NCBI GenBank assembly: GCA_023663685.1
Contig: JAMPHB010000003.1
Location: 77,874-125,490 of the forward strand
DNA length: 47,617 bases
Direction: 5' to 3'
Origin: Blautia sp.
GTDB lineage: Bacteria > Bacillota > Clostridia > Lachnospirales > Lachnospiraceae
Shown piece by piece: positions 19,299 through 27,042 of this stretch (the first letter of the stretch is position 1; each line of letters begins with the position of its first letter). The position numbers and the translations under genes are program-made. The notes below the pieces were generated by a model. It saw nothing but the letters and a program-made list of their open reading frames with translations, was not told the DNA's origin and did not search any database.

Positions 19299-20765
19299 AT
19301 GTACGCTGACGAAAATGTGATTACGATCAAACACGCGGTGTTGTATGAGGTGGCGAAACTGGCCTTTGAGGGGGAGCTGGATTCCCAGCGAGACCAGATC
19401 GCATTTCATCTGATTCCGGGACCGACCCCGCAGTTTCGCTGCTGCATCTATAAGGAGAGAGAGATTATCCGCCAGAGAGTGCGGCTGGCGGAGGGCAAGG
19501 CGCCGGGGCCGGTGGACGACGGCAATGTGATTCAGGTTATCAGCTCCGCCTGCGAGGATTGCCCGATCTCCAGTTACACCGTGACGGAGAATTGCCAGAA
19601 CTGTATCGGAAAGGCCTGCATCAACGCATGTAAGTTCGGTGCGATTACGGCGGGACGCCACAGATCCCACATTGACCCGCAGAAGTGCAAGGAGTGCGGC
19701 AAGTGTGCGTCGGCCTGCCCCTACAACGCTATCGCCCATTTGAAGCGCCCCTGCAAGTTTGCCTGCCCGGTGGACGCGATTACATACAATGAATTTGGGA
19801 TTTCTGTCATTGACGACAGCAAGTGTATCCGCTGCGGCAAATGTATCCACAGCTGCCCGTTCGGCGCGATCGGCTCAAAGACTTTCATTGTAGATGTGAT
19901 CAATGCGCTCAAGTCAAATAAGAAGGTTTACGCCATGGCGGCGCCGGCCACCGAGGGACAGTTTGGCCCCAATATTACGATGAAGAGCTGGAAGAAGGCG
20001 ATGCAGGACGTCGGTTTTAACGGCTTTATTGAGGTCGGTCTGGGCGGCGATATGACCGCTGCCGCAGAGGCAGAGGAGTGGGCGGAGGCCTACCGTGCCG
20101 GAGAAAAGAAGGTGACGAGCTGCTGTCCGGGCTTTGTCAATATGGTGCGCAAGCAGTTCCCGGATATGGCGGATAAGATTTCCACCACTGTATCCCCGAT
20201 GTGCGCGGTGTCCCGTCTGATCAAGGCGCAGGATCCGGACGCAGTTACCGTATTTATCGGCCCCTGCGTGGCGAAGAAGTCGGAGGTGGTAGACCAGAAG
20301 ATCGAGGGCAACGCGGACTATGTGCTGACTTACTCGGAGATCCGCGCGATCATGCGTGCGAAGAATGTGGAGCTCAAGGCGGCGGACACCGCTTCCTATC
20401 AGGAGGCATCTATTTACGGCAAGCGCTTCGGCAATTCCGGCGGTGTGACGGCTGCGGTTGTGCAGAGCATGAAGGAGAGGAACGAGGGTATCGAGCCGAA
20501 GGTCTGCAAGGCCAACGGAGCGGCGGAGTGCAAGAAGTTTTTGATGCTTATGAAGGCAGGAAAGCTGCCGGATGATTTCATCGAGGGCATGGCATGTGAG
20601 GGGGGCTGCGTCGGCGGACCAAGCTCTTACAACGACCAGCTTTCCACAAAGAAGTTCCGGGATGAGCTCATGGAGAAGGCGGATAAGAGAGGGATTCTGC
20701 AGAATCTGGAGCATTATCATATGGAAACATTTTCCATGCACCGCGAGCAGGAAAACGGTTTTTAA
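19299..20765 (+). CDS. Monomeric [FeFe] hydrogenase, group B-like
   Basis: A 488-residue iron-sulfur hydrogenase that exchanges electrons between ferredoxin and protons/H2. An N-terminal region (RCCIYKEREIIRQRVRLAEG) is followed by many cysteines: CEDCPISS (85-92), CQNCIGKACINAC (99-111), CKECGKCASAC (130-140) and CIRCGKCIHSC (176-186), which form several 4Fe-4S sites. The H-cluster motifs are TSCCPGF (273-279), GPCVAKKSE (321-329) in place of the classical MPCxxKKxE, and MACEGGCVGG (431-440). These variants fit the group B type rather than HydA. It is divergent from the S8 protease gene and has AAAAAAGGAGAGAAGG upstream. Codons are strongly biased (AAG, GGC), suggesting high expression. No hydEFG maturases are in the window. 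Confidence 0.92.
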   Translation: MYADENVITIKHAVLYEVAKLAFEGELDSQRDQIAFHLIPGPTPQFRCCIYKEREIIRQRVRLAEGKAPGPVDDGNVIQVISSACEDCPISSYTVTENCQNCIGKACINACKFGAITAGRHRSHIDPQKCKECGKCASACPYNAIAHLKRPCKFACPVDAITYNEFGISVIDDSKCIRCGKCIHSCPFGAIGSKTFIVDVINALKSNKKVYAMAAPATEGQFGPNITMKSWKKAMQDVGFNGFIEVGLGGDMTAAAEAEEWAEAYRAGEKKVTSCCPGFVNMVRKQFPDMADKISTTVSPMCAVSRLIKAQDPDAVTVFIGPCVAKKSEVVDQKIEGNADYVLTYSEIRAIMRAKNVELKAADTASYQEASIYGKRFGNSGGVTAAVVQSMKERNEGIEPKVCKANGAAECKKFLMLMKAGKLPDDFIEGMACEGGCVGGPSSYNDQLSTKKFRDELMEKADKRGILQNLEHYHMETFSMHREQENGF

Positions 20766-20849: not shown

Positions 20850-20922
20850 AGAAGTGGTGTGAGGCTTTTCCGTATTTTTTCGGAGAGGTCAAATATACAA
20901 TAAGAATGAGAGGATGAAGCGT

Positions 20923-21927
20923 ATGAAAAAAAGTGTTTCAAAGAGGGTCATTTCACTGGTACTGGCTCTCGCAATGGTAGTTGGGGGGGCGTTTTATAAT
21001 GTAACTCCCGCAAAGGCGGCGACCGTTACTCTGGCGACGGTGGATAGCACTTATGTAACGGCAGGTCAGGAGTATAAGATTGATTTTACTTTAACATCGA
21101 CCTCCAGCGTGGAAGTGGATATTATTGTCAGCAACCCATCTGCCACAGAGATTTGTGTATACAATAGTGCGGGAGTTCCGCTTGACTGGTCAGACAATCC
21201 GTTCTATATCAGCGCTACGGACTATATGCAGGTAGAATCTATTTATGGTTACGCAGATGTTTTAGATAACCTTTCACCGGGAGATTATACTTACGGTGTG
21301 AAGTTTGCGAGCGATACATACCTCATGGCTGAGGCATATGCGGCTACTGCAGATCCAAAGATCAGCCAGACATCTGCGACAGTTACTGTAGGCTTTACCA
21401 AGAAGCTTTCTGTTACTGACGGAACAGTAGAGAAGTGGAGCTCCAGCAAGACGAGCATTGCAAAGGTTGACAAGAACGGCAAGGTTACCGCTAAGAAGAA
21501 GGGTACTGCAACCATCACCGCTACACTGACAGACGGCACCAAGCTGAAATGTAAGGTAAAGGTAGTGGAGAATAAGTATACGGAGAGCAAGTATACAGTT
21601 AGCGATGTACCTTATGGCGACTGGAACATGCAGGTATACAAGGCTACCTTTGACAAGAACGGCAATCTGGTACTGAATGTCAATATTGTAAATGGTATGT
21701 ACAACAAGATTGTTCGCCTTGATAATCTGAAGATTACCGTAAAGGATGCCAATGGCAAGACGGTTGGCGTATACAAGGCAAGCAAGAAGAGCATCTCAGT
21801 TGGCGCCCGTTCTACAAAGACTACGACCTTTACGATTAAGAAGTCTGCATTGAAGAAGAAGAATGCGGATCTCAGAAATTGTACGATTTCTATTCCGACG
21901 AGTGTGACAGCAAGATATTATTACTAA
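20923..21927 (+). CDS. Secreted protein with a bacterial Ig-like (BIG2) domain
   Basis: A 334-residue exported protein. The signal peptide has a basic start, a hydrophobic core (VISLVLALAMVVGGAF) and a likely cut after PAKA. An all-beta region (about 30-140) is followed by a BIG2 domain (about 145-215: VTVGFTKKLSVT, WSSSKTSIAKVDKNGKVTAKKKGTATITATL). A final beta-rich domain (about 225-334) has no name I recognise. BIG2 domains occur in surface and adhesion proteins; no anchor is seen, so the protein is probably released. The ATG at 20923 is nine bases from GAGAGG; an ATG at 20914 is directly adjacent to it. Codon use is unusually biased, as in highly expressed genes. A strong terminator follows. 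Confidence 0.85.
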   Translation: MKKSVSKRVISLVLALAMVVGGAFYNVTPAKAATVTLATVDSTYVTAGQEYKIDFTLTSTSSVEVDIIVSNPSATEICVYNSAGVPLDWSDNPFYISATDYMQVESIYGYADVLDNLSPGDYTYGVKFASDTYLMAEAYAATADPKISQTSATVTVGFTKKLSVTDGTVEKWSSSKTSIAKVDKNGKVTAKKKGTATITATLTDGTKLKCKVKVVENKYTESKYTVSDVPYGDWNMQVYKATFDKNGNLVLNVNIVNGMYNKIVRLDNLKITVKDANGKTVGVYKASKKSISVGARSTKTTTFTIKKSALKKKNADLRNCTISIPTSVTARYYY

Positions 21928-22096: not shown

Positions 22097-22167
22097 GCAG
22101 ATGTAGTTCATCGGTAGAATACCAGCTTCCCAAGCTGGGGAGGCGGGTTCGATTCCCGTCATCTGCT
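22097..22167 (+). tRNA. tRNA-Gly (anticodon CCC)
   Basis: The acceptor stem GCAGATG (22097-22103) pairs with CATCTGC (22160-22166), with discriminator T. The D arm is GTTC/GAAT. The anticodon stem CCAGC/GCTGG holds the loop TTCCCAA, giving anticodon CCC (22129-22131). The T arm is GCGGG-TTCGATT-CCCGT. The 3' CCA is not encoded. It reads GGG codons. Confidence 0.95.
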
Positions 22168-22308: not shown

Positions 22309-22372
22309 AAAGAAATTGGAGAAGCATTTTTTACCAGACCCTGGCAATCAGGATAAGAGTGGAGGAAGCAGC

Positions 22373-23722
22373 ATGAGTCATATTGCGTGGGAGAGCATCT
22401 ATGAAATCGGTGTAGAAAGCATTGACAGAGAGCATAAGCAATTGTTTTCGACGATGAACAAACTGATTAAGCTTAGCGAGCAGGAAGAAAAAAGTGAATG
22501 GGTTTGTCGTGAGGGAATCAAATATTTAAAAAATCACGCCATCGTTCATTTTGAGAATGAAGAGAAATATATGCAGTCTGTTCAGTTCAGTGGCTATGAG
22601 ATACATAAGCGCCTGCATGATGATTTCCGTTATAATACGATTCCGGCTCTGGAGAGGGAGCTGGAAGAGAAGAAGTATTCCGAGGAGGCCGTCCGGCATT
22701 TTGTAGCAGTCTGTATTGGCTGGGTGATTTCCCATACAAAGACCGAGGATCAGGCAATCGGAGGGAAGGGCGGCACTTGCTGGGATGCGATTCCGCATGA
22801 GAAGGAAAAGGAAGCGCTGGAGCTTACGATTATCCAGCTGATTGAGGAGCTTACGAAGCTTAAGGCGAGACTGATCAGTGAGCAGTATGCAGGAGAGAAC
22901 TTTGGCAATGTCTTCTGCTTCCGTTATGCTTACCGTGGAGAGAACAAGGAGCGGTGGGAGGTCACGCTTATTTTTGAGGAGAGGCTTCTTCTCAAGCTGG
23001 TCAGCAACATGTTAAATACCAGCTATCCGAGGGTTGACGAAATGGTGCTCAATCTTACCCGCTATTTTTCACGCCAGTTTCTGGAGTCACTCAGGGAGCG
23101 TTTTCCGGCGATCAGCCTTTTGACCCTGGAGAATGAGTCGCTTCTGACATATGACCAGATGGTGAAATCGTTTGAGCGCGAGCATCCGGCCTACAGCCTC
23201 CTGTTTAGCACCGGGGAGGGGTATTTCGGATTCAGCACGATATCGGCGGAGCCGTTGAGCGGCAAGGTTACGCCGGAGTTTACCCATGAGACGGCGATGA
23301 ATGCGCTTAAGGATTATCTGGTCAGGGAAAAAGAGGAGAATGAGAGCCGGAAGTATAAGATTCTCGTGGTGGACGATTCAGATTTTGTGCTTGGCAGGAT
23401 GCGCAAGATTCTGGCGGAAGAGTACGATCTGATCGAGTCGCATTCCAGCATATCCGCGATCAAAAAGATTGTGGTGAACCGCCCGGATCTGGTGCTGCTG
23501 GATTATGAGATGCCGATTTGCGACGGCAAGCAGACACTGGAGATGATTCGCTCCGACGAAGACATTTCGGATATTCCGGTTATGTTTTTGACCGGCAGGG
23601 ACGACAGGGAAAGCGTAAAGAATGTGCGAACCTTAAAGCCGGAGGGATATCTTCTGAAAAAAATGTCCGATGATTTTATAAAAAAATATGTCGATGACTT
23701 CTTTGAGAAAAAGGCGATGTAG
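22373..23722 (+). CDS. Bacteriohemerythrin - CheX-like - receiver fusion
   Basis: A 449-residue cytoplasmic protein. Residues 1-135 are a bacteriohemerythrin with all seven di-iron ligands: H21 (DREH), H59 and E63 (HFENE), H78 and H82 (HKRLH), H121 and D126 (SHTKTED). It should bind O2 reversibly. The middle (about 175-310) has the alternating pattern of CheC/CheX-type domains (WEVTLIFEERLLLKLVSNML, VDEMVLNLTRYFSRQFLESL), but the ExxN phosphatase motif is not clear. Residues about 325-449 are a receiver domain: VVDDS, phosphorylatable Asp in LVLLDYEMPICDG, Thr in FLTGRDD, and a C-terminal Lys region. There is no DNA-binding output. It may link oxygen or redox state to chemotaxis or another phosphorelay (inference). 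The ATG at 22373 follows GGAGGAAG; no che genes are adjacent. Confidence 0.88.
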   Translation: MSHIAWESIYEIGVESIDREHKQLFSTMNKLIKLSEQEEKSEWVCREGIKYLKNHAIVHFENEEKYMQSVQFSGYEIHKRLHDDFRYNTIPALERELEEKKYSEEAVRHFVAVCIGWVISHTKTEDQAIGGKGGTCWDAIPHEKEKEALELTIIQLIEELTKLKARLISEQYAGENFGNVFCFRYAYRGENKERWEVTLIFEERLLLKLVSNMLNTSYPRVDEMVLNLTRYFSRQFLESLRERFPAISLLTLENESLLTYDQMVKSFEREHPAYSLLFSTGEGYFGFSTISAEPLSGKVTPEFTHETAMNALKDYLVREKEENESRKYKILVVDDSDFVLGRMRKILAEEYDLIESHSSISAIKKIVVNRPDLVLLDYEMPICDGKQTLEMIRSDEDISDIPVMFLTGRDDRESVKNVRTLKPEGYLLKKMSDDFIKKYVDDFFEKKAM

Positions 23723-23732
23723 AATGGAAAAG

Positions 23733-23766
23733 ACCGGAAGCGGGTGTCCCTGCTTCCGGTTTTTTG
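23733..23766 (+). terminator. Terminator after the hemerythrin-receiver gene
   Basis: A 9-bp stem ACCGGAAGC/GCTTCCGGT (23733-23741, 23752-23760), extended inward by GGG/CCC, followed by a T run. Confidence 0.9.
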
Positions 23767-23778
23767 CCTGCTTCTCTA

Positions 23779-23820
23779 AAAGATAAAATGGTTAAAACTA
23801 ACCGAAATATCTTTTAGGAT
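23779..23820 (+). repeat. 42-bp dyad repeat, copy 1, upstream of the AAA ATPase promoter
   Basis: Copy 1 of a repeat whose second copy is at 23850-23891 (39 of 42 bases identical, period 71). Each copy is itself a dyad: outer arms AAAAGATA...TATCTTTT and inner arms GGTTA-AAAC-TAACC. It ends exactly one base before the -35 element. Probable operator site. Confidence 0.8.
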
Positions 23821-23849
23821 TTGAAATTATATATTTTCCCTGATATAAT
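23821..23849 (+). promoter_or_regulatory. Promoter of the AAA ATPase gene, enclosed by two repeats
   Basis: TTGAAA (23821-23826), 17 bases, TATAAT (23844-23849) with a TG extension (23841-23842). The 29-bp core fills the gap between the two 42-bp repeats with no spare base on either side. Confidence 0.85.
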
Positions 23850-23891
23850 AAAAGAGAAAAAGGTTAAAACTAACTGAAATATCTTTTAGGA
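23850..23891 (+). repeat. 42-bp dyad repeat, copy 2, in the AAA ATPase leader
   Basis: Starts directly after the -10 element and so covers the transcript start and 5' leader. Its end, TTTTAGGA, runs into the ribosome binding site AGGAGGAG (23887-23894). In RNA the dyad could fold into a hairpin (TATCTTTT with AAAAGAGA) near the ribosome binding site. It differs from copy 1 at three positions (23856, 23861, 23875). Confidence 0.8.
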
Positions 23892-23901
23892 GGAGCTTTG
23901 T

Positions 23902-25161
23902 ATGGAAATAGAGATTAAGCGGGATTATTATTTGGAACAGATGATAAAGCGTAAAAATAATGGCCTGATAAAAATTGTGACCGGCATCCGAAGATGCGGA
24001 AAGTCTTATCTGCTGCGCACACTTTTTAAAAATTCCCTGCTTGCGGAGGGCGTGGAGGCCGACCATATTATAGAAATGGCATTTGATTTGTTTGAAAATA
24101 TGGAGTACCGTGACCCGAAGGTGTTTTATCCATGGATACAAAAACAGATGAAGAATAATGAAAAATACTACATTCTGCTGGACGAGGTGCAGATGCTTGG
24201 AGAGTTTGTCAGTGTACTGAACGGGCTTGCGGATAAAAAGAATTGTGATGTGTATGTATCCGGCAGCAATGCGAGATTTCTGTCAAAGGATATCGCTACG
24301 GAGTTTGGCGGCAGGGGTGATGAGATTCATATGTATCCTCTGAGTTTTTCTGAGTTTATGTCCGTGTACGATGGGAATAAGTATGACGGCTGGAATGAAT
24401 ATATCTCATATGGAGGAATCCCGCTGGTTGTCCTTGCGGACACGGAAGAACAGAAGGTGGCCCTGCTTGATAATTTGTTTAGGGAAACCTACATCCGCGA
24501 CATTGTAAAACGCAATAAAATCAGAAATGCCGGCGAGATGGAAGCATTGTTGGATATTCTTTCTTCAGCGATTGGTTCTCTCACCAATCCTAATAAGCTG
24601 AAAAATACATTTAAGAGCGTAGGTAACTCCAAAATTACTTCTACTACGATAACAAAGTATCTTGAGTATCTGGAGGACGCGTTTCTGGTGGAGGCAGCAA
24701 AGAGGTATGATATTAAGGGAAAGTCCTATATAGGGACGCCGCTCAAGTATTATTTTATGGATATGGGGCTTCGTAATGCGCGGATCAATTTCCGGCAGAT
24801 GGAGGTGACGCATTCGATGGAAAATGTAATATACAATGAGCTGCGTATGCGTGGCTACCGTGTAGATGTGGGCAAGCTGACAATTATGGAAAATGGCAGG
24901 GACACAAAGGCTGTAAAAAAGCACTTGGAGGTAGATTTCATATGTAGTAAAGGCTCGAAGCGGTATTATATTCAGTCAGCATACCTTCTTGAAACAGAAG
25001 AAAAGACAGCACAGGAGTTGCGGCCGCTTTTGAGGATTCAGGATTCCTTTAAGAAAATTGTGATTACATCGAATACTCCAAAACCATTTTATAATGAAGA
25101 CGGCATATTGCTGATGGGCGTATATGATTTTCTGTTAAATGCAAACGCATTGGAACTGTGA
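23902..25161 (+). CDS. AAA ATPase with C-terminal DUF4143-type domain
   Basis: A 419-residue ATP-binding protein of the AAA_14/DUF4143 type. Walker A is GIRRCGKS (28-35); Walker B is YILLDEVQ near residues 90-98; a sensor-like YVSGSNARFLS follows. The later RGR-type region (GGRGDEIHMYPLSFSEF) and YGGIPLVV are family hallmarks. The C-terminal half (about 210-400: ETYIRDIVKRNKIRN, MENVIYNELRMRGYRVDVGK, KHLEVDFI) resembles the DUF4143 part, which has an endonuclease-like E...VDF arrangement. Such ATPases are common in variable regions of Clostridia and Bacteroidetes and their role is unknown. The gene is lower in GC than its neighbours, which suggests acquisition. Regulation by the two flanking repeats is likely. 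Confidence 0.88.
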   Translation: MEIEIKRDYYLEQMIKRKNNGLIKIVTGIRRCGKSYLLRTLFKNSLLAEGVEADHIIEMAFDLFENMEYRDPKVFYPWIQKQMKNNEKYYILLDEVQMLGEFVSVLNGLADKKNCDVYVSGSNARFLSKDIATEFGGRGDEIHMYPLSFSEFMSVYDGNKYDGWNEYISYGGIPLVVLADTEEQKVALLDNLFRETYIRDIVKRNKIRNAGEMEALLDILSSAIGSLTNPNKLKNTFKSVGNSKITSTTITKYLEYLEDAFLVEAAKRYDIKGKSYIGTPLKYYFMDMGLRNARINFRQMEVTHSMENVIYNELRMRGYRVDVGKLTIMENGRDTKAVKKHLEVDFICSKGSKRYYIQSAYLLETEEKTAQELRPLLRIQDSFKKIVITSNTPKPFYNEDGILLMGVYDFLLNANALEL

Positions 25162-25210
25162 ATACTGTTATGCACATTGCACAAAATCCTTTTTAATTCC
25201 TATGATATTA

Positions 25211-25239
25211 TTGCAAATAAGCACAAAACTTGCTATAAT
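25211..25239 (+). promoter_or_regulatory. Promoter of the PAS-GGDEF-EAL gene
   Basis: TTGCAA (25211-25216), 17 bases, TATAAT (25234-25239) with a TG extension. An open frame continues through it from 25177, but that part is not coding. Confidence 0.8.
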
Positions 25240-25293
25240 ATACAGCGGTACGGTGAAAAGCCAAGGCTGGATTTTGGAAATAGAGGTATGCCT

Positions 25294-27042
25294 ATGAGTA
25301 AAGAGAATGCTTTTACATATGAGGATTACCGGAGTGTAATTGACAGATTTGCCCCCTGCATGAACGATTATCTGTATGTGGTGGATATCAAAAATGACAG
25401 ATATTACATTACAAAGCGGGCGCTCGGGCGCTTTGCATTGCCGGGAGAGGAGTTTGAGGGTGTGCTGGAAGGCCATCGGAAATTTGTCTACTCGGAGGAT
25501 CTGCCGCTGCTGGAAGCCGATCTGGATCTGCTGTTGAGCGGAAAGAAGGATTCCCACGATATCATTTACCGCTGGATCGGTGTGGAGAAGGAGCCAATCT
25601 GGATCAACTGTAAGGGCCGGATCATCCGGGACGATGAGGGCGAGGTTGCCTTTATGGTCGGGTGTATCAATGAGGTGGGCAAGCGCAATATTGCAGACAA
25701 CATCAGCGGCCTCATGGGCGATCATGCCATCTGGGAGAACTGGGAAAAGTTCGTGGAGCATATGCCCGGAGGTTTTCTGCTTCGCTTTGGAATCGACGAT
25801 TTCAAGGCTGTAAACGAGAAGCTTGGCGTGGCATACGGAGACCGTGTGCTAAGAGGCGTGGCAAAGTGTATCCTCGATGCGCTGCACCCGGGGCAGGAGG
25901 TGTACCGGACGATTTCCGACGAGTTTGTGGTGGTAGACTACGAGGGCGGTACGCCGGAGGATGCGAGGGAGCTGTACCAGAAAGTACGCGCGCTCAACGA
26001 CGTCCTCATTGAGCAGTCCGACTATGAGGCAGTGTACACAATCTCCGGCGGTGTGGTTACCGGGGCGGATGTGTGGTCGCTTTCTGCGGAGGATATCCGC
26101 AAAATTTCCCAGTTTGCGCTGAATCAGGCGAAGGCGATGGGGAAAAACCAGATATACAGCTTTCAGGAGAAGGACTACGATGCATTTCTGCGCAGGCGGG
26201 CAATCCTTGTGGAGCTGCGCCGGGCAGTGTCCCACAATTATGCCGGTTTTGAGCTGTTCTTCCAGCCGATTATCCGGGTGGGAGATCCGCAGCTGTATGC
26301 CGCGGAGAGCCTGCTGCGTTTTACGACGACAGCGGGGGAGCGCCTGTCTCCGGTAGAATTCATTCCGATTCTGGAGGAGAGCGGGCTGATTATTCCGGTA
26401 GGACGCTGGATCATTGATCAGGCGCTGTCCATGTGCGCTGAGAGCCGCCGGACATATCCAAATTTTAAAATCAGCGTGAATCTGTCCTATGTACAGGTGT
26501 TAAAGAGCAGCGTGTATGACGAGATCGTGGGCGCTCTGGAGAGGTATCATCTGTGCCCGGACTGTATGATCGTGGAGATGACAGAGAGCGGCTATATCGA
26601 GAATACGCCGACGGTGCGCAAGGTATGGGATAAGCTCCGGGATTACGGCGTGCTGATTGCCATTGACGATTTTGGAACGGGATACTCGAATCTGCAGTCC
26701 ATCAGCAGCATCATGCCCAATATCGTAAAGCTGGACAGGGGCTTTACGATGAAGGCTCTGCAGAATTACTATGAGCATCAGCTGATGACCCATATTATCC
26801 AGCTGGTGCACAGCATCGATTTGAAGATATGTGTCGAGGGTGTGGAGACAATGGACGAGCTGAGCGAGATCGAGAAGCTCTCGGCGGACTGTATCCAGGG
26901 CTACTATTACGGCAGACCCTGCAGCCGCGGCGAATTCTTAGAGGATTTTGTGCGGGGCGGCAAGGTGAAGGAAATCATGGAAGCCCAGCAGCAAAACGGC
27001 GGGGTGAAGGCGCTCACGGAAGCCCTGCAACATAGCGTTTGA
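25294..27042 (+). CDS. PAS - degenerate GGDEF - EAL cyclic di-GMP phosphodiesterase
   Basis: A 582-residue cytoplasmic protein. A PAS domain (about 10-130) contains LYVVDIKNDRYYITK and ends INEVGKRN. The GGDEF domain (about 140-300) reads ISDEF at 207-211 instead of GGDEF, so it is probably not a cyclase and may bind GTP as a regulator. The EAL domain (about 310-560) reads ESL (338-340) but keeps the metal-binding Glu. It also keeps NLSYVQ, EMTESG, DDFGTGYSNL, KLDR, CVEGVET and CIQGYYYGRP, so phosphodiesterase activity is expected. The ATG at 25294 is seven bases from AGAGG. Its last 29 bases overlap the convergent DtxR-type gene. Confidence 0.9.
   Translation: MSKENAFTYEDYRSVIDRFAPCMNDYLYVVDIKNDRYYITKRALGRFALPGEEFEGVLEGHRKFVYSEDLPLLEADLDLLLSGKKDSHDIIYRWIGVEKEPIWINCKGRIIRDDEGEVAFMVGCINEVGKRNIADNISGLMGDHAIWENWEKFVEHMPGGFLLRFGIDDFKAVNEKLGVAYGDRVLRGVAKCILDALHPGQEVYRTISDEFVVVDYEGGTPEDARELYQKVRALNDVLIEQSDYEAVYTISGGVVTGADVWSLSAEDIRKISQFALNQAKAMGKNQIYSFQEKDYDAFLRRRAILVELRRAVSHNYAGFELFFQPIIRVGDPQLYAAESLLRFTTTAGERLSPVEFIPILEESGLIIPVGRWIIDQALSMCAESRRTYPNFKISVNLSYVQVLKSSVYDEIVGALERYHLCPDCMIVEMTESGYIENTPTVRKVWDKLRDYGVLIAIDDFGTGYSNLQSISSIMPNIVKLDRGFTMKALQNYYEHQLMTHIIQLVHSIDLKICVEGVETMDELSEIEKLSADCIQGYYYGRPCSRGEFLEDFVRGGKVKEIMEAQQQNGGVKALTEALQHSV

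Follow-up and report, generated by a model that had tools for sequence, protein, structure and literature searches.

Twin conserved dyads flank the promoter of a DUF4143 ATPase gene in Blautia and probably form a private autoregulatory operator

Why should the promoter of a single gene be enclosed by two nearly identical dyads, and what might read them? The question is raised by a 47,617-nucleotide stretch of a Blautia sp. contig (hereafter the window), in which a preliminary description had noted two near-identical 42-bp repeats flanking the promoter of an AAA ATPase gene. The repeats are real, since inspection and a mechanical repeat search agree on them. The distal copy (copy 1; 23776..23817, + strand), recovered by both and by the 42-position model introduced below, is followed by a −35 element, TTGAAA (23821..23826, +), and, after a 17-bp spacer, by a −10 element, TATAAT (23844..23849, +). 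The proximal copy (copy 2; 23848..23889, +) lies over the expected transcription start and extends up to the ribosome binding site (RBS), AGGAGG (23888..23893, +); the promoter elements and the RBS were located by inspection. In this register the two copies are identical at 38 of 42 positions. The 39 of 42 reported earlier is recovered in the register 23778-23819 / 23850-23891, but the period is 72 rather than 71 (direct repeat D1 of the mechanical search). Likewise, the copies were said to abut the promoter, which is nearly exact on the −35 side and gives way to a 2-bp overlap on the −10 side. Indeed, the first two bases of copy 2 fall within the −10 element and its last two within AGGAGG, so that it overlaps the leader and touches the RBS as described.

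Each copy is also a nested dyad, with outer arms CTAAAAGA/TCTTTTAG and inner arms GGTTA/TAACC. In copy 1 the outer dyad occupies 23776-23783/23810-23817 and the inner dyad 23790-23794/23799-23803 (both +), and the mechanical search returns them together as inverted repeat I2 (arms 23776-23794 and 23799-23817, 79% complementary). The symmetry is less perfect in copy 2. When the 150 nt upstream of the gene were compared with 99 dinucleotide shuffles, the direct repeat reached the floor of p = 0.01 and the inverted repeat, taken alone, gave p = 0.07. It is conservation that carries the case for the dyads.

The gene served by this promoter (23902..25161, +) encodes a 419-aa ATPase, recognized by Pfam and PADLOC profiles. 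AAA_14 (E = 2.4e-32, 112.1 bits, cut-off 27) and DUF4143 (E = 8e-19, 68.4 bits, cut-off 28.1) both score above their curated cut-offs. The family assignment of what had been called an ATPase of unknown role thus stands, and the role can be sharpened: by profile, the protein is a member of PADLOC PDC-S01, matching PDLC04787 over residues 4-414 of 419 (E = 3.7e-121), and it is a candidate for phage defence. As far as the available text of PMC12988326 goes, PDC-S01 consists of an ATPase domain fused to a member of the PD-(D/E)XK superfamily and is the fourth most common defence across prokaryotes, its systems numbering 29,494 in bacteria and 9,986 in archaea in that dataset, with validation pending for most PDCs. 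The ATPase carries a Walker A motif (GIRRCGKS) and a Walker B motif (LLDEVQ). Toward its C-terminus, E307, E343, D345 and Q358 are invariant in 49 proteins, and there is no lysine at the motif end (YIQSA). A fold search returned AAA, STAND and Orc matches, mostly over residues 1-304, including the archaeal proteins PABY2304 (2qen) and SSO1545 (2fna) as well as Orc1/Cdc6, all at only 13-20% sequence identity. A sequence search of the PDB found no relative at E ≤ 1, and the PHROGs and NCBIfam profiles gave no match to the ATPase. A phage origin of the gene was considered and set aside, a pattern search of IMG/VR, whose reach is close relatives only, having returned no relative.

The neighbours of the ATPase gene are ordinary genes: an [FeFe]-hydrogenase (19299-20765), a Big_2-domain protein (20914-21927), a tRNA-Gly(ccc) (22097-22167) and a hemerythrin-response regulator fusion (22316-23722) on one side, and a PAS-GGDEF-EAL protein (25177-27042) on the other. 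An inverted repeat with a T run (I1; 23721..23772, +), the likely terminator of the hemerythrin gene, lies outside the operator. No regulator gene adjoins the ATPase gene.

Is the element peculiar to this gene? The 113-bp element occurs once in its own genome. A 42-position model, built in part from the window copies, was used to score 150 of the 1635 first-look candidates there; copies 1 and 2 were the only full sites, accompanied by one stray partial match (E = 0.42). Across 62 genomes of the genus, with the best 104 candidates scored in each, the model matched in seven. In six of these the match adjoins the ATPase gene; the seventh match (G064) is weak, partial and placed between unrelated genes. 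An interspersed repeat is rejected by the lack of further full sites among the candidates scored in the genome of the window and by the six of seven genus matches that adjoin the ATPase gene. The element thus turns up upstream of orthologues instead of scattered, and the earlier proposal of a two-site operator comes out of this search well supported.

To follow the element with its gene, we fetched 72 relatives and displayed 62 of them with the window, excluding 10 partial matches. The weight-matrix comparison was made on 50 close relatives plus the window, with 12 more distant or fragmentary loci excluded. A proximal copy is present in 50 of these 51 orthologous loci. Because the matrix had been trained on the proximal copies themselves, leave-one-out scoring was added, by which those 50 copies score at least 18 against a shuffled maximum of 4. 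The exception, L072, has its sole copy about 50 bp further upstream and was scored as having neither a proximal nor a distal copy. For the distal copy 49 loci were testable, the upstream sequence of L024 and L027 being too short. It scored above every mononucleotide shuffle in 30 of them, always 71-74 bp upstream, and a clear distal copy is missing in 19. In 29 of the 30 loci with both copies, the interval between them contains a −35-like TTG with A, C or T as the next base. The inner palindrome is altered in L051 and L064. Elsewhere in L051, at 2692-2780, an additional operator copy with an RBS-like stretch is followed by what appears by eye to be sequence like the gene's 3′ end; a second ATPase copy seems to have been deleted here, leaving this trace.

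These 51 loci represent about 47 neighbourhoods, as judged by blastn of the flanks (E 1e-10 and 100 bp), a comparison that strongly diverged flanks could escape. Common flanks were found for L010/L012, L019/L020, L042/L043 and L046/L054, with one 228-bp stretch common to L026/L029, and for no other pair. The motif therefore belongs to the gene and not to its neighbours. In short, symmetric sites over the gene's own promoter (p = 0.07 for the dyad of the window alone) are conserved with the gene.

Symmetry of this kind could act in double-stranded DNA or in the leader RNA. Out of 21 pairs, 13.2 are complementary in the proximal copies (n = 50) and 14.5 in the distal copies (n = 30), compared with 6.5 in shuffles. 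In a set of 26 copies that we chose from these 80 (50 proximal, 30 distal), the 20-pair dyad contains 79.4% standard pairs, as against 35-52% when the dyad is slid, and covariation is 0.122, as against 0.076 in shuffles and at most 0.050 when slid. In the same 26 chosen copies, pairs changed on both sides number 7 versus 5.8 in shuffles, with 132 of 500 shuffles as high. Since the symmetry is no weaker in the distal copies, upstream of the promoter, than in the proximal ones, it points to a site in double-stranded DNA.

The preliminary description had also allowed for control at the RNA level, and the proximal copy might be imagined as an RNA hairpin that hides the RBS. Copy 2 does lie in the leader and touch the RBS, and one of four leaders (L028, z = −2.2) folds better than its shuffles, as do three of 47 orthologous leaders at z below −2. 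The median z over those 47 is +0.29, however, and the leaders of the window, L023 and L046 fold no better than shuffles (z = −0.45, −0.30 and −0.66). Moreover, transcription is expected to start within the left arm, and the distal copy, though upstream of the promoter, is no less symmetric. No conserved structured leader was found among the 47. Control by RNA is not supported by these results, and we regard the hairpin as extremely unlikely.

Paralogues and more distant relatives carry differently spelled repeats at the same place. Among 141 family genes found, 140 with distinct upstream sequences (48 orthologues and 92 others) were tested at p ≤ 0.01 by comparing the 150 nt upstream of each gene with 99 dinucleotide shuffles, other genes of the same loci serving as controls; some of the 140 were fetched in part only, and their profile score does not measure distance. 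Direct repeats were significant in 61 of the 140 family genes versus 7 of 160 controls, inverted repeats in 40 versus 9, and one or the other in 85 versus 15 (9% of controls). By kinship, the 85 comprise 35 of the 48 orthologues and 50 of the 92 others. The remaining 55 family genes have no significant promoter repeat by this test. In the order to which G137 belongs (the source genome of L066, with a Prevotellaceae record), the test was passed by 13 of 23 family genes versus 2 of 22 controls, the 23 being the usable genes from the 29 best-matching loci listed. A set drawn from eight genomes of the fetched loci, partly genes already counted in the 140-gene test, gave 13 of 20 versus 5 of 33, and the window's own order, which overlaps that test, gave 32 of 68 versus 8 of 42. 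The loci of this last set, L176-L264, are the same as in the 140-gene test, where the genes of L278, L289 and L290, at least, had also been counted already.

The spacing of the repeats varies across the family. Significant direct repeats of 28 orthologues are spaced 71-75 bp apart. In 19 middle-scoring genes with unrelated motifs the spacing is 69-79 bp in 12, 86-90 bp in five and 40 bp in two, and in the 14 lowest-scoring genes it ranges from 32 to 114 bp. As regards the looping or clamping raised in the preliminary description, the 71-74 bp of the orthologues corresponds to about seven helical turns, but other members have 32-34, 39-40, 66-67 or 86-90 bp. The genome of the window itself holds four DUF4143 genes (the window gene, L081, L083 and L084), whose promoter repeats differ by eye. 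Two of the paralogues fail the test at p ≤ 0.01, with 0.13 and 0.13 for L081 and 0.02 and 0.07 for L084; L083, whose N-terminus looks incomplete, was outside the test.

How does the motif change as the protein changes? Operator similarity was computed over the 60 nt upstream of the start for the 7140 pairs of 120 of the 140 genes. Its medians are 25, 31 and 38 at protein identities in the 70s, 80s and 90s, and 8-10 below 70% identity, where shuffles give 6-9. As 1125 of the 1158 pairs at or above 70% identity come from the window's own orthologue group, it is one group that fixes where this drop falls. When non-orthologous pairs are considered by themselves, operator scores of at least 15 are attained by 10 of 13 at 80% identity or more, 7 of 20 at 70-79%, 37 of 418 at 60-69% and 35 of 738 at 50-59%. 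The site motif thus changes with the protein, the steepness of the drop near 70% coming mainly from one group. Such divergence would not be expected from a single common outside regulator.

These comparisons bear on the identity of the binder. A separate host transcription factor could bind the dyads and control the ATPase gene. Single genes are often under global regulators, and it is we who infer that the ATPase is the binder. Against a host factor, no full site was found elsewhere in the genome of the window when 150 of 1635 candidates were scored; motifs differ from one family gene to another, even within one genome as far as inspection shows; and the motif changes with the protein. A host factor seems to us quite improbable. 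We favour the ATPase itself, already suggested in the preliminary description, as the putative binder because the motif travels with its gene through unrelated neighbourhoods and changes with its protein.

If the ATPase reads the dyads, part of its sequence might track them. Sliding 15-residue windows were scanned over 83 proteins and 2651 pairs, which are not independent. Over all pairs, identity within 241-255 predicts operator similarity best once overall identity is allowed for (r = 0.205). The same stretch ranks first at 55-80% identity (r = 0.247); at 70-97% identity 244-258 and then 241-255 lead (r = 0.216 and 0.214); and at 45-72% identity windows within 181-201 come first, with 241-255 fourth (0.164). 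Two scans place residues 256-270 among the lowest stretches. Thus 241-255 or 244-258 is on top in three of four overlapping scans, with a modest signal (r = 0.21-0.25). Column-by-column association of operator letters with protein residues, which is confounded by descent, revealed no clear domain. The predicted structure (mean pLDDT 91.3) has helices at 210-222, 230-241 and 247-259, followed by two strands. We take these elements for a winged helix that separates the AAA module from the C-terminal domain. On that reading of the model, residues 241-258 (codons 24622..24675, +) would cover the third helix, the predicted recognition helix. In some structural neighbours, such as NB-ARC proteins, the winged helix is not known to read DNA.

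Overall, we consider it probable that the dyads are a private two-site autoregulatory operator, to both sites of which the ATPase binds and thereby represses its own promoter. In the mechanism that we propose, the ATPase, with its STAND/Orc-like AAA module, putative winged helix and candidate PD-(D/E)XK-like C-terminus, would occupy the dyads in dimeric or higher oligomeric form, with the winged helix probably making the contact and the two sites perhaps cooperating. Once bound, it would cover the promoter from both ends: the −35 flank at one site, and the −10 element, the transcription start and the RBS at the other. Its own expression would thereby be held low. Expression would then rise when the protein leaves its sites, be it by titration, through a nucleotide switch or in response to a phage signal.

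Simple promoter occlusion does not explain a further observation. At seven of the 51 orthologous loci (L010, L012, L036, L039, L047, L048 and L050) a third dyad copy lies within about 20 bp after the stop codon; that of L048 is half only, and five of the seven loci have no clear distal copy. L070 has a copy of its own, unrelated motif after the stop codon, and L106, which looks alike by eye, fails the shuffle test. The third copy may be an auxiliary site. Lac-type auxiliary operators offer one regulator more than one site at variable distance from the promoter; the likeness lies in the multiplicity of sites, whereas here two copies stand on either side of the promoter core. Two of the fetched loci have other features beside the ATPase gene. 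Upstream of it in L012, a C5 cytosine DNA methylase gene (1389-2477; Pfam DNA_methylase, 7.6e-70) overlaps a convergent ORF (536-1414) that has no Pfam match, and the two are possibly a restriction-modification pair. In L063, a CRISPR-like array of nine 38-nt repeats with 66-68 bp spacing (1468-2039) lies about 260 bp past the ATPase gene.

Copies beyond the stop codon would be at home in a different scheme, in which the dyads are target or sensing sites where the ATPase assembles as a decoy, licence or sensor platform in the manner of Orc/Cdc6, promoter control being secondary. Orc1/Cdc6 proteins bind origins, and the fold of the ATPase resembles both them and STAND proteins; the third copy right after the stop codon in seven of 51 loci and the 3′ copy of the unrelated motif in L070 speak the same way. 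Most copies, however, hug the promoter and the RBS, which transcription control fits best, and we think a sensing platform unlikely.

A dyad after the stop codon in some loci could also suggest that the ATPase gene is carried by a mobile element, with the dyads as its ends or as sites of recombination, the more so as the gene is variably present in near-identical surroundings and is spread over about 47 neighbourhoods. A near relative, G061 (contig C27, L154/L175), shares the hemerythrin and GGDEF/EAL genes, at about 94% DNA identity, but lacks the ATPase gene and has three bases in place of window positions 23724..25233 (+). In this one presence/absence pair, from which insertion and deletion are indistinguishable, the absent segment overshoots copy 1 by 52 bp and the stop codon by 72 bp, its ends thus lying away from the dyads, and target repeats are not evident at the junction. 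The other 20 loci of the upstream gene (L155-L174) contain neither the ATPase nor the downstream gene within the fetched stretch. Boundaries in the G061 comparison thus do not coincide with the repeats, and the two conserved copies flank the promoter rather than the gene, which makes a role as mobile-element ends very improbable.

The autoregulatory operator can be set beside known systems. Inverted-repeat sites are a feature of autorepressed defence, toxin-antitoxin and C-protein systems. In the available portion of PMC12255303, autorepressed defence and toxin-antitoxin operons, restriction-modification controller (C) proteins, BrxR/CapW and RptR all place a DNA-binding factor on the promoter of a potentially harmful gene. 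In those systems a dedicated regulator or antitoxin does this; by contrast, the ATPase here appears to be its own regulator. Its structural neighbours offer a second comparison. For SSO1545 we found no operator described. IniR of mycobacteria, according to the accessible part of PMC5760070, is a transcription regulator whose SSO1545-like ATPase domain is accompanied by a MalT-like domain and, at the C-terminus, by a DNA-binding domain of its own. It binds the iniBAC promoter, and in a reporter assay it induced transcription. The likeness is a transcription regulator built on such an ATPase domain; the differences are the MalT-like and separate DNA-binding domains of IniR and its induction of iniBAC. 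As far as the partly available text allows a judgement, no paper found on DUF4143, COG1373, PF13635/PF13173 or PDC-S01 deals with promoter repeats of the family, the PDC-S01 accounts in PMC12988326 and PMC13356809 included. The accessible part of PMC12988326 is silent on such repeats and on autoregulation alike.

These findings may be relevant in several ways. First, they provide a candidate gene-specific DNA ligand and a predicted reading helix for the very abundant, largely uncharacterised PDC-S01 family, which makes binding, repression and release directly testable. Second, they argue that, in contrast to systems relying on a separate repressor, a defence ATPase can regulate itself through a private operator that diverges fast. 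Finally, and more tentatively, the DUF4143/PDC-S01 superfamily as a whole might conceivably consist of self-reading STAND-like ATPases, each of them binding DNA in a sequence-specific way at a private palindrome placed at its own promoter and sometimes at its gene end, that sense invasion by staying silent while bound and being released or switched by phage DNA or proteins. If so, the operators would constitute a ready catalogue of DNA ligands for a largely unvalidated defence family.
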